Source: Spiroplasma kunkelii CR2-3x (GTDB lineage: Bacteria > Bacillota_I > Bacilli_A > Mycoplasmatales > Mycoplasmataceae). From it: a stretch of DNA of 64,000 nucleotides. Positions 3,347-48,030 of the stretch are shown piece by piece. The notes under the pieces were generated by a model. The model was not told the DNA's origin and ran no database searches. It was given only the letters and a program-made list of their open reading frames with translations. The stretch lies in assembly GCF_001274875.1 (NCBI RefSeq), contig NZ_CP010899.1, forward strand, positions 620,001 through 684,000. Direction: 5' to 3'. The stretch's first letter is position 1, and every line of letters starts with the position of its first letter. The position numbers and the translations under genes are program-made.

Positions 3347-3684
3347 ATGGTAACTTTTAAGACTATTTCAGGGAAAACTAAGGACTTTTTGAGGAAAAAA
3401 GGAGACAAATTAAGTAATAAAAGAGCATATTTATACTATTTAAAACTACCATTTAATAATTGAAAAGATGAAATTGATACAAAAACTGCTGATTTTATTG
3501 AAGATATGATAAATAAATTAGAAATAGAGCAAGAATTATCATTATTAAATGACTCCTATGGGGGGGTAAGAAAATTTATTTTGATAAATATGTTAAAGAC
3601 ACAAATATAAATAATGCTAATATTGTTATTCAATTTGATAAAGAAGAATTACCTAAAATAAATGAGGTAATAAAAGATGCTTAA
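3347..3684 (+). CDS. terS: Phage small terminase-like protein with poly-G frameshift site
   Basis: Assigned as small terminase because it is short, charged, and directly overlaps the large terminase start. In the zero frame the protein ends at 3610 (87 aa). A run of seven G at 3560-3566 follows codon Tyr; a -1 shift there gives GGGKKIYFDKYVKD and continues to the stop at 3684, ending IVIQFDKEELPKI. This end overlaps the next ATG by 8 nt, the usual coupled arrangement. A decayed inverted copy (30612-30947) has six G. Either programmed slippage or a mutation explains this; if mutated, the gene is broken. Confidence 0.6.
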
Positions 3685-5137
3685 ACACTTTTTACATTTA
3701 GATGAAATACCAAGATGGTTTTATCAACAAAATATTCCTAATGCACCTTGAAAAGAAATATATAATCCTGCTGATGAATATAATGAAATAGGAAGTCGTT
3801 ATAGTGCTAAAACATTTGCAATTAAAGATAATCCTATTGGTAAGTCTTGTGCAATATCATTATTAGTTAATAAACCAATATTTATTATTGCTGTTATGAA
3901 AATGAATAAAGATATTAGAAATGGAGTATTTAAAAATATTCAAAATACTCTTAATGATATGAATATTAATTATAAAGTTAATTTATCAGAGAATTCTTTT
4001 ACATTAGATAATGGTACTTATATTTTTTGTAAAGGTTTACATTCACAAACTAAAAGAGAAAAATTAAAAGCATTTGCTGACTTAAATAATTATGAATTTG
4101 CGATTGAATGAAGAGAAGAAGCAGATCAATTAACACAAGAAGATATTAGTGAATTATCATTTGCTGTTCGTGGTGCTAAAAGAAAATTTATTATTAATTC
4201 ATCTAATCCTGAATCATTAGGAAGATATATTATTAAATATTGTAATGAAATAATGCCATTTAATGAACAATTAATGCGATTAAAATATGATCAAATAGGT
4301 AAATTTAAAATTAATTATTATGAAAAAGATAAAAAGTTTACTAAAACTATAATTATTCATTATTCTAGTTGAAGACTTAATACTTATTTAAGTAATGATA
4401 TTGTAAGAGATCAATTAGAAATGGAAAGAGGATGACCATCAAGAGCAAGAGTATGAAGTTGAGGATTACCTGGACAAGTACAAGGTGCTGTATTTGCTGA
4501 ATATCTTAAATTTACTAAATTAACTTGAACTTTTGATAAAATCCTTGCTGGTGTTGATTATGCTCAAGCAGATATTCCAAATGCACATAAAACAAGTGCT
4601 AGTTTATGAGTATATAATTCAACTTTAAAAAAAGTACATAAAATAGGTAAATATACTCACTCTAATGCAACTATGGAACATAGAAATGTATTTGAACAAG
4701 CACATGATATAATTCAATTTTATTTATCTAGTTTAAAAAATAGTACTATTTTTATTGAAAATGGTTTAACTATTAATGTTGATTATGGTGGTGGTGGAAA
4801 AGCATTTATTGATGTTCTTAATAAGGAAAAAAGAAAATATAAATATGGCACATTATTAAGATTTGAAGAAGTTGATAAAAGTATATGAAATGTTACTAAT
4901 AGAGTTAATTCATTTCTTGCATTAATGATTACTGATAAAATGACCCATGATTTAATATTGGAAGAAAGTAATAAAGAATATCCAATGATTCAATGAAAAG
5001 AAAAACCAAATGGTGGAAAAGAAGAAATAGTAGATTTATATGATGATGAATTTGATGCTGATTATTATGCATTAAGTGAATATATTAGAGATATTGTTCA
5101 ATCATCAACTAATAGATTAATAAGGGAGTATGTTTAA
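3677..5137 (+). CDS. terL: Phage terminase large subunit
   Basis: 486 aa packaging motor. An atypical Walker A (GSRYSAKT, residues 39-46) is followed by the Walker-B-like WREEADQL (145-152), where Glu couples ATP hydrolysis. The nuclease half begins around GVDYAQAD with a candidate metal ligand D294, and the C-terminus holds DADYYALSEYIRD. Layout and length fit PBSX-like terminases. TGA is Trp throughout. The ATG overlaps the terS end. Fragments of the same gene occur at 30323-30617 and, diverged, at 63730-64000. Confidence 0.85.
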
Positions 5138-5138
5138 T

Positions 5139-5324
5139 ATGTATATATATTTAATTGATATGGATAAAATTATTGGGAAGTATAAAAAGAATGTTCCTAA
5201 AAATAATATTTTTGTTTATAAATATAAAAATGATTATAAAGTTTTAAAAGTAGATAAAGTAGAAAAAGACAGTAAGATATTAATTTGTCATCTTGCTAGA
5301 TTAGGAGTAAATAAAAATGAATAA
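5139..5324 (+). CDS. Small phage protein between terminase and portal
   Basis: 61 aa, charged, no recognised domain (ends HLARLGVNKNE). AAGGGAG at 5122-5128 sits well for ATG 5139; the in-frame ATG at 5130 is too close to it. The stop overlaps the portal start. Probably a small head or connector accessory protein, by position only. Confidence 0.5.
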   Translation: MYIYLIDMDKIIGKYKKNVPKNNIFVYKYKNDYKVLKVDKVEKDSKILICHLARLGVNKNE

Positions 5325-6678
5325 TAATATAAATAATTGATTATCATTTAATAATCGTGATTGAAAAATAAATGTTCCTTTAATTGTTGCACAAAGAAAA
5401 GTAAGAATGGAAATAGGAAGGGGATTACTTTGTGATAGTGAAGATGAAAAAGCATTAATACATTGACAAAATTGATATCATAAAAGAAAAATATATGAAA
5501 AATTAATTAAAATGTCATGAACTAAATCATTATTAGGTGTTGCTGTTATGTTTATATATGAAACTCGTGATGGTGATTTAGATGTTATGTTAGGAACAGC
5601 ATTATTTACTAATTTTGTATCTAAAATTAACGAAGAAGAACAATCAGCAGATATTTGAATATTACCAAATCAAGATGATACTGGTTATATCTTTCATGTT
5701 ATTATTAATGATAAATATATTCAAATTGATTCATATCCTAATGATGAAAATACTCAATCAGGAGTAGTTAGTGGAAAAATAGATAAAAGTTTAAGAATTG
5801 AAAAAAGAACATATATTAATAAATTAGGTCGTTTTCCATTAATTCAAGTTCCTAATTTTATTAAAGCTAATTTACAAGGTCAAGCATCAAGCACAATGTT
5901 AAGTGCTTATCCTGATATTTTTCCTACTATGTGATTAATTGAAGATTTACAAGATAATTTATTTATTAAAAAGAAAACAAGAAGATTTAGTCGTGCCAGA
6001 GGTTTTATTCAAGCAAATAGTGAAGAAATTAATGCTATAAAAAATAATAAAAAATCTTGAAATGATTATGAAAGTGATTTTGTTATTCAAAATGTAAATG
6101 CTAATTATGATGAAAAAAGTGGTAATTCAACTGTTAATTATACTCAAGGACAATATAATTCAAATGATTATAATTTAGATACTGATCATATTTTAAAAAT
6201 TGTATTTCGTGGAATTGGTTTAAGTTGACAAGCAGATGAACAAGGAACTTATACTAATCAAAATCAAACATTAATTATGCAAGCAGAAGATATTGAATCA
6301 CAAGCAGTATGACAAGATTTTTTATTAGATTATTTATATCGTTTATTTGATTGTTGATGAATATTTCATAAATATTGAATTAATGAAAATAATAATTGAG
6401 ATAGAATTGAACGCCCTTACTCATTAAAATTTAAACCAGCAGGAATTATTGATCAAATGCGTTTAGTTGATACAAATAATACAAGATTAGAAAATGGTAC
6501 AATGTCTCGAGCAAAGTATATTCATATTGTTGATAGTATTCCAATGACTTTTGCTAAAAAAGAAGTTGAAAAAATTGATAAAGAAGAAATGGAATATAAT
6601 GATAATTTTGGGTTAGAAAATGATAATGAAGAAAATAAAAATACAGGTGGTATAAAAGATGAATTTAAACAAAAATAA
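5317..6678 (+). CDS. Phage portal-like protein
   Basis: 453 aa. Its position right after terL and its size match portal proteins, the dodecameric ring through which DNA is packed. It has mixed alpha/beta character, many Trp from TGA, and a polar acidic C-terminal tail (EENKNTGGIKDEFKQ). No catalytic motif is expected. I did not recognise a specific Pfam family, so the call rests on synteny and length. It overlaps both neighbours. Confidence 0.6.
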
Positions 6679-9600
6679 TAATAAAGAGTTAATACAAATT
6701 AATAATCAAGTATTATATACTGCAATGCGAATGGCATCTACTGATAGTAAAGTTATTAAGCGTAAAATCCAAGAATTAGATAAATGATTTATTTTCCCTT
6801 TTGTTATTACAAATGGAGTTATTCCATTAACTACAAGTGGATATAAACCAATTAATAGTATTCCCCAAGATTATTCAGATTTTACACTTGCTATTACTGG
6901 TAATGCTACAATTATTGCTCAATGAAAAAATGCTTTTAAATTAAAACAAGTTAATAAAGGGACTGAACAAAAAGATTTTAAAGATGCTGATAATTTTTAT
7001 ACTAAAATTATTAATCCAATGCATTACCCTACTAATCGCGGTGATGTGTATGAAGCATATTTACAAAATAGTACTAGTGGTGCATATTTTTCTTCACAAG
7101 GAACTCCTGATCCTATTTTTCAAGGTATTTCAACTCAACGCCAATATACTTTATTATCAACAGATAAACAATTTGGTCAAAATGATGAATTAAACCTTTA
7201 TGTTGTTTTAAATAAAAATAATGAAAATATTGGTGGAGAAACTATTAATACTTATGAATATAATCAATCTATTCAATGATTATATATTTCTAACATTACA
7301 GATTATTATGATCCTTTTGATAATAAAAAGTTTTTATTTCAAGAAATTACATTTAGTAGTGTTAATGATCATTTATCTAAATCAGGTATGGCAATATGAC
7401 AAAAAATTCAACATGGTGCAATCGGTGAAGGTTATTTTTTCCCAAGAATTATTGATGGAGTTGTTGATTATGACCCAACATTAGCAAAAGATATAGGTGT
7501 TAAATGAATTGATTTAAAAGTACTAGGTTTAACTGCTTTTACTTCTTTAACTGTTATTGGTCGCCCTATTAAAACAGGTCAAATTAATAAAAGAGTATAT
7601 CAACCACGAGATTTATTATTTTCAGATGAATTAAGTGGAATGCCTGATACTTTATTAACTAATTCTAATCCTGCAAATATATTATATAATTTACAAGGAT
7701 TAAAACCAGTTAATCAAACTACTTATGGTGAATGAACTAATATTTTTAATGCATTAGCAGATCCATTAGCAAAGAAAAATGCTGAAGGTGTATTAGGTAG
7801 TGATTTAGAAGCTACTAGAAAAACAAATTCTAATAAAGTTCCTTTTTGAGATAGTGGATTACAATTTAAACCATCTGGAAGTTATGATACTAAACAAATT
7901 CGTAAATTTATTTATCAAGATCCTGAATATAAAAAAGAACCTTTTGGTGTTGCTTCATTTGATTATTCAAAATTAAAATCTTCATCATTTCATGATGTAT
8001 TAAATGCCAATCGTTATACTCATTCATCAGTTTCATTATTACCTTGAGATGTTAATGAATTTACTAAATTTAGTCTTAATAATTTACCTATTGTTGGTAA
8101 AATAATATCATTTTTTGATTTAGGTTTACCAGTTAAATTAATGCGACAAAAAAATACTAAATTAATACCAAAAATAGCACAATTAAATGCTTTTATTGAT
8201 TATTTAAGTTATGAAATTATTCAAAATAGTTTATGAAAAGATAAAAGTGCTGGAAAAGGTAATATTCCTTATGATATGTTTCGTAATGAAACAGAAGATC
8301 AAGTTGGTGGTTTAATTGGAAGTAATTCATTAACATTTGGTTGTATGCTTAAATTAACAGATAAAATTAGAACACATTATTATTCATCAACTGGAACAGA
8401 TTTAGGAAGTAAAGTTTATTCAACTATTGATTTAGGACAAAATAGAATTAATGTTAATAATGGTACTGATGAAATTGTAATATTATCGCAAGATTTTCAA
8501 GCATTAGATAAAGATACTAAATTAACTGATTTAGATACAAAATTAGAATTTAATCCAACTACTGATGGAACATTAGAAAGTTATGTTATTGATTTAATTA
8601 ATTTACAAACTATTGGTAAAACTAATTTTAAAATTACAACATATTCAGAAAATCCATTTACTTTAAATGATAATATTACTGCATTTCAAAATTTTCAAGG
8701 TGAATGACAAACAATGGCTAAATTTATTAAACCAAATGGCAATGTTCAAGCATGAAATAGTGTTATTAAAACAAGTGCTTTAGATTATGATTTACTTGAA
8801 GAAACAACATTCTTTTACCCTCAAGCAGTATTACCACCTGATCCATTTACATATAAACCTTATACTGTTGATATTATTAAAGAATTTTTAACTATGTCAT
8901 TTAATGCGATTGAAAAAGGACAATGTAAAAAAATTACACCACCCTATAATACTGCTCATAATAATTTTTTTGATGAAAATAATAAATATTTTGGATATAG
9001 TGAAATTGAAATTGATTTAAAAAAAATTAGTCCAACAATTACTACTTTAGAACAATTTTTACATGCTTATTCATCAATTCAATTTAATAATCTTAATAAT
9101 ATACAAATTATTTGTGAAGAAGCAAAAAAAGATTATTTTAAAAATAAAGATGTTGAAATTTTAGTTGGTCGTTCTGGTTGTTCAGACCAATTAGGTACTT
9201 TGGGAAGTTTGGGTTTTGTAAAACAAGGACTTAAACAAATAGATAATGTTAATTTTAATGGTAGTTTAATTTATGATCTTGCTAATATAGAAAAAAATAA
9301 AATAAAAACATTATTTACTGGTGAAACTAATGGATTACCAGAAAAAGAATATAGAACTAAATATAAAACTTCTTTGGGAAACGCATTTTTTTATTTATTA
9401 TTACAAATAACTAAATTATCTAATAATGATGACAATAAAATTAAAGAATTATATATACAAGCATGATATACTTCTGATTTTAAATTAAAAATAAGAATAT
9501 CAAAAACTATGATTCCTAAATTTATGGGAGTTGAAGGGTACGGAGATGTTTGATATTGAGGTACAAATGAACACCCAACACCTACTGAATATGATAGTAT

Positions 9601-9688
9601 AGAATTTAATATAAATAATAAAAAACTTTTATGTCTTAAAAATAATAATATTAATCCTATTAGTATTACATTTATTCCATCTAGTTAA
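6659..9688 (+). CDS. Large phage structural protein (1009 aa)
   Basis: One open frame of 1009 aa in code 4, overlapping the portal end by 20 nt. There is no transmembrane segment or signal. The composition is rich in Asn, Thr, Ser and aromatic residues, as in tail or connector proteins. It follows the portal and precedes the scaffold/capsid-like genes, so a tail-knob, collar or head-tail protein is plausible. No family recognised. The downstream intergenic region begins a separate transcription unit. Confidence 0.55.
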
Positions 9689-11684: not shown

Positions 11685-12167
11685 ATGGCAAAAATAGGTG
11701 GAAAATCAAGTGTTGCATTACCTACTCTTTTTCAAATTGGTGGAAATAGTCCAACAGAAAAAGCAATCGGTGATGTTGCAGTTTTACAAATTAAAAAAAT
11801 TTTAGAAGCAGATAGTCAATATATTGATGCAACTGAAATGATGATGATGTCTGCTGAACAAATTTCAATGGCGGGTCCTTTTGAACAAGGACAATATGTT
11901 TTTCCTGAAAGAATGGTTTGAGGAAATGATTATGATACATCTGCGGGTGCTGAACAACAATCCGTAGGAGTAAGAAGAGCAATGGTTTTGATGGATCAAA
12001 TGTTAACTTTTAAATATGATGTTCCTTCATTTGATACTGTTCGTTTTATGGAATCACCTGTGTTAGTATTGATAGTGATTGAAATAAAGATTATTTTTGG
12101 CAAATGGAAGAATATGTTCCATATGATAAAAAAATATTTCGGTTTTTTCATAAAATATCTGATTTAG
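11685..12167 (+). pseudogene. Major capsid-like protein, truncated by virus junction
   Basis: Begins MAKIGGKSSVALPTLFQIGG after a strong RBS (AGGAGG). About 124 residues look native up to DTVRFMESP. At about 12058 the sequence switches into the 3' part of an SpV1-like rep gene read in another frame, adding a chance tail (IVIEIKIIFGKW). A normal major capsid protein would be about 300 aa, so most is missing. Function inferred from the scaffold neighbour. Confidence 0.55.
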
Positions 12168-30322: not shown

Positions 30323-30617
30323 ATAAACTAGCACTTGTTTTATGTGCATTTGGACTATCTGCTTGAGCATAATCAACACCAGCAAGGATTTTATCAAAAG
30401 TTCAAGTTAATTTAGTAAATTTAAGATATTCAGCAAATACAGCACCCTGTACTTGTCCAGGTAATCCTCAACTTCATACTCTTGCTCTTGATGGTCATCT
30501 TCTTTCCATTTCTAATTGATCTCTTACAATATCATTACTTAAATAAGTATGCATTAGGAATATTTTGTTGATAAAACCATCTTGGTATTTCATCTAAATG
30601 TAAAAAGTGTTTAAGCA
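30323..30617 (-). pseudogene. Inverted terL fragments
   Basis: 30323-30545 is the complement of terL around residues 235-310 (SWGLPGQVQGAVFAEYLKF). It then jumps to the first ~22 codons of terL (30546-30617). An internal deletion removed ~640 bp. Confidence 0.85.
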
Positions 30618-30947
30618 TCTTTAATTACCTCATTTATTTTAGGTAATTCTTCTTTATCAAATTGAATAACAATATTAGAGTTAGAAACATTTATATCTTT
30701 AACATATTTATCAAAATAAATTTTCTTACCCCCCATAGGAGTCATTTAATAATGATAATTCTTGCTATATTTCTAATTTATTTATCATATCTTCAATAAA
30801 ATCAGCAGCTTTTGCATCAATTTCATCTTTTCAATTATTAAATGGTAGTTTTAAATAGTATAAATATGCTCTTTTATTACTTAATTTGTTGCCTTTTTGT
30901 TGTAAAAATGCTGTAGTTTTGTCGCTAATTGTTCTAAAATTTGCCAT
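30612..30947 (-). pseudogene. Inverted terS copy
   Basis: Starts MANFRTISDKTTAFLQQKG and matches 3347-3684. An extra T creates a stop after NKLEI, and the poly-G run has six G. Nonfunctional. Confidence 0.75.
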
Positions 30948-47629: not shown

Positions 47630-48030
47630 CTATTTTTTAATATTCGTATTTGTTCTTTTTCTAATAGCTTTTTGTATAATTTCAAAACTATCTACCCTAA
47701 AAGATAAAAAATAGCGTTTAGTTTTTATATTTAACTGATTAAAAACTGAGCCTTTAATTTTTATTTCATCATCTTTTTTTAATTTCAAAAACTCATTTAA
47801 AATCAATGGATTATATATTGATAATGTTGAATAATTTAATCCCTCTCATTGACATTTAGCAGAGCAAGCATCAACTTCAACACCCCCCCCGCAACCAGTG
47901 CCTTAATTTTAGTTTTAATCGGATTTTCATGTAATCTAACAGTTAATTCTAATTTATTAACTTTTTTATTTTTTAATTTAGGTTTATTAGTTATTGTTTT
48001 TTTATGTAAATTACTTTTTGTTTGTGCCAT
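47630..48030 (-). CDS. Phage protein with poly-G frameshift site
   Basis: Begins MAQTKSNLHKKTITNKPKLK with RBS AAAGGAG. In the zero frame it ends at 47836 (64 aa). The run of eight G (47883-47890 on this strand) allows a -1 shift to GVEVDACSAKCQWEGLNYST, continuing to 47630 and ending right at the next gene's RBS, total about 133 aa. Arithmetic fits exactly one re-read base. Basic N-terminus, beta-rich C-terminus (FLKLKKDDEIKIKGSVFNQL); possible ssDNA-binding or recombination function. Otherwise a simple indel. Confidence 0.55.

Follow-up and report, generated by a model that had tools for sequence, protein, structure and literature searches.

The stretch of Spiroplasma kunkelii CR2-3x DNA analysed here (64,000 nucleotides, positions 620,001 to 684,000 of NZ_CP010899.1; hereafter the window, whose numbering is used unless a genome position is indicated) carries on its plus strand a prophage gene in the position of terS, directly upstream of and overlapping terL. 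As it stands, the zero frame of this gene runs from 3347 to 3610 and comprises 87 codons, with TGA read as W, of which the final 14 lie outside the native frame. The frame is lost at a run of seven G at 3560-3566 (+), read as TAT GGG GGG GTA AGA. The native 3' end now lies in the -1 frame (3565-3684, +; GKKIYFDKYV...VIKDA), which continues without further lesion to a TAA at 3682-3684 and overlaps the ATG of terL (3677) as ATGCTTAA. A preliminary description of this DNA had placed the end of the zero frame at 3610 and traced the -1 frame across the start of terL to 3684, and both were borne out by the sequence. We call the gene terS because of where it lies, directly upstream of terL and overlapping it, and because the long form of 112 residues falls within the roughly 110-130 codons typical of TerS. 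Searches of Pfam, PHROGs and PDB sequences gave no significant match that would confirm the TerS family, and the AlphaFold model of the protein, made for two sequences, was too poor for use (pLDDT 42).

The genes downstream are in unequal condition. terL is intact (3677-5137, +; 486 aa, Pfam Terminase_3), and it is open relative to its S. phoeniceum homologue, as are the portal-position gene (5317-6678, +) and the gene for a large prophage protein of 1009 aa (6659-9688, +). The capsid-position gene (11685-12061, +), on the other hand, is cut after about 126 codons; its S. citri homologue encodes more than 430 aa in one frame, and the homology ends at 12061. With the capsid-position gene truncated in this way, the prophage is defective irrespective of terS.

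DNA searches of the genome and the family, together with a plasmid search, yielded ten homologues of the terS-position gene outside the window: two in this genome, two in S. citri (G015), four in S. phoeniceum P40, one in a further species (G025) and one, from the plasmid search, on the S. citri plasmid pSciBLH13-2. All ten read TAT-G[GA]C-GGG-GGN at the tract and align there without indels; the differences in G count among them are substitutions, and a C interrupts the run in every copy. Nine copies have one open frame for 112 residues, and the tenth (phoe_1677k) is broken by a separate indel further upstream. The glycine turn encoded at the tract is invariant in five aligned full-length proteins, reading GGG in the versions from four species; in the DNA alignment one further copy reads DGG. 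Compared with these ten homologues (GGC or GAC followed by G5-G7), the window copy at 3347 is one base short and lacks the C. A -1 shift on it restores YGGGKKIYFDKYV..., which is the ancestral-type protein (YGGGKK...), and the product fits the conserved YGGGKKIY.(E/D)KYV protein with zero gaps. The preliminary description was therefore right to take the -1 frame for the native end of terS, since the homologues encode it in a single frame.

The same comparison speaks against a further claim, that the run is a conserved slippery site which opens a longer protein. Two overlapping frames joined at G7 are what would be seen if programmed -1 frameshifting had evolved so that a single gene yields TerS in two lengths, short and long. 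However, the relatives make the long form only, from one frame in which the run is broken by C (GGC GGG GGN), the last 14 residues of the short form are non-conserved, and no stimulators were found: the predicted RNA fold of 3555-3660 is no better than that of shuffled sequences (z -0.14). Neither the shift site nor the two-frame layout is conserved in the ten homologues, and we rejected programmed frameshifting as extremely improbable. Conserved G runs in related terS genes had been proposed as a check, and the pure run proved not to be conserved, being C-interrupted in all ten outside copies. Intact relatives without a G run and with the long form in one frame had been named as the finding that would count against the claim; this is largely what the homologues present, with a single frame and a run that is interrupted rather than missing. 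Furthermore, GGGGGGG does not qualify as the slippery heptamer suggested earlier, as in TAT GGG GGG GTA neither T_GGG_GGG nor G_GGG_GTA re-pairs fully.

Slippage could also act in a less specialised way, with RNA polymerase or the ribosome slipping on G7 so that some full-length protein is made as an incidental rescue of the lesion rather than by an evolved device, and this would be compatible with the origin of the run that we favour below. After a -1 slip the P-site GGG could re-pair with GGG, the product would equal the ancestral-type protein, and the G7 run of the herpesvirus thymidine kinase gene provides a precedent for low-level rescue (PMC5009743). The viral run has the same length as the one described here, and it illustrates that frameshifting can partly rescue a one-base lesion at such a run; at the spiroplasma locus a shifted product would be hypothetical, and no selection for residual activity is known. 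Moreover, the A-site GTA cannot re-pair in the -1 frame, so that the site departs from the standard X_XXY_YYZ, no Shine-Dalgarno-like element was seen by eye just upstream of the tract, the fold of 3555-3660 mentioned above lends no help, and the prophage is defective anyway. We regard rescue of this kind as unlikely.

In our reading, G7 probably marks where a defective prophage lost one base at an unstable G tract, in a glycine-rich stretch of the gene, and is not a site of programmed frameshifting. The ancestral sequence was probably TAT GGC GGG GGT AAG AAA, from which either loss of the C, or a change of C to G followed by contraction of the resulting G8, would give TAT GGG GGG GTA AGA...; these two routes are indistinguishable from the sequence here. 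The shift ends the protein after 14 wrong residues, and a useful amount of full-length protein would presumably not be made. Replication slippage is the likely cause of the indel. Slippage at G7, as raised in the preliminary description, fits in this capacity, as the cause of a mutation, but as a working expression device it finds no evidence here. The single-frame homologues and the indel at a mononucleotide run place the gene with the homopolymer frameshift pseudogenes of bacteria that lack mismatch repair, in which, as here, a one-base indel sits at such a run, the rest of the gene is open, relatives are single-frame and mutS and mutL are not found. It differs from them in that its uninterrupted run seems to date from the time of the indel or shortly earlier, as the relatives carry the interrupting C. 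One counterpoint to a mutation is that, the cut capsid-position gene aside, the terL, portal-position and 1009-aa genes are open over several kb. For this reason, and because no second lesion interrupts the -1 frame of terS, the change would be recent or the gene end still in use. An apparent frameshift site is in this case explained by its close relatives.

A second, decayed copy of the terS-position gene lies on the minus strand of the window (30614-30947), with an in-frame TAG and a run of G6 (30729-30734) that is one G shorter than that of the G7 copy and likewise without the C; the six G, and the difference in run length between the copies, had been noted correctly in the preliminary description. 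The decayed copy bears on two other explanations of G7. Homopolymer length is a weak point of PacBio sequencing, and the true run might be G8, or the C might be present, in which case the gene would be intact in the cell. The genome of CR2-3x was assembled from PacBio reads only, at ~97x (PMC4616174). However, the C is absent from both window copies, whose lengths differ, and other tracts of the genome (described below) show differences of +2 and +3 from those of relatives, too large to be easily put down to miscalls of one base. A sequencing error is, in our estimate, an alternative to be taken seriously, though quite unlikely.

Alternatively, the tract could be a contingency switch that holds terS on at G8 or G5 and off at G7 or G6. 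It is long enough to slip, its length differs between the copies, and other tracts of the genome vary; as in the poly-G phase-variable genes of Neisseria and Campylobacter, the length of a coding poly-G sets the frame. In contrast to those genes, the relatives do not share an uninterrupted tract, and nothing points to reversible switching here: the run is C-interrupted and indel-free in all ten outside homologues, which speaks against a conserved switch, and an uninterrupted tract conserved with on and off lengths was not found. As the prophage is also truncated, we hold phase variation to be highly improbable.

We compared G tracts across the genome locus by locus and found that they are unstable in S. 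kunkelii. Another gene in terS position, of a different kind and immediately upstream of a second type of terL, has G8 at genome position 847863 (-), compared to G6 in eight homologues, and its frame is broken at this run. In a small multi-copy gene of this genome, possibly a filamentous-phage gene, three copies have G6, one has G9 and stays in frame with one extra Gly, and the window copy has G8 (47883-47890, -) and is broken. In other species, most copies of this gene carry an interrupted GCTGGTGG. A cellular gene, putatively dehydrogenase-like by eye, reads A6-T-G8 at genome position 1327876 (-) compared to A7-T-G5 in three relatives, and is split. The instability would go together with a lack of mismatch repair: MutS and MutL models matched nothing in the S. 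kunkelii genome and found matches in 11 of 14 control genomes, and absence of both proteins has been published across Spiroplasma (PMC8208695). The repeated differences in tract length, including those across copies of one gene, fit absent mismatch repair and are a warning to annotators of split genes; this wider drift is a more useful point than the terS site itself. A search of the literature on poly-G variation in Spiroplasma returned nothing relevant.

Two different terS-position genes of this genome are broken at G runs, at G7 in the window and at G8 at 847863. That glycine turns encoded by G runs near the 3' end of terS act as recurrent mutational off-switches in spiroplasma prophages, with packaging by the residents shut down and restored as the runs drift in length, seems to us very doubtful. 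Homology between the two terS-position proteins is unproven, as a profile comparison aligned their GG turns close together with a probability of only 2%.

Runs such as G7 are uncommon yet recurrent, and not unique. A simulated first-order Markov model predicts 0.17 runs of at least 7 G or C per 64 kb, compared to 2 observed in the window. The whole S. kunkelii genome holds 17 such runs, about 4x the Markov expectation, and related Spiroplasma genomes have similar numbers. The earlier statement that G runs of this length are very rare holds in that they are uncommon, but they recur in these genomes.

Within S. kunkelii there are three further copies of the terS-position gene, including the decayed window copy; at the full-length ones, the adjoining terL has a deletion or is missing. 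No homologues were found in phage records or viral contigs. In S. phoeniceum, three terS copies lie about 20.3 kb apart (G019:C1:1635842-1676866), as if in tandem prophages. The same terS occurs on the 22.3-kb S. citri plasmid NZ_CP047430.1 together with a terL that is fragmented, which suggests a phage-derived plasmid. Finally, S. citri pSCI15 encodes an otherwise different terS-position protein (1422-1826) that has a C-terminal segment (QQP.IVNLQTDIRDIK) in common with the G025 homologue, hinting at a possible exchange of 3' ends.
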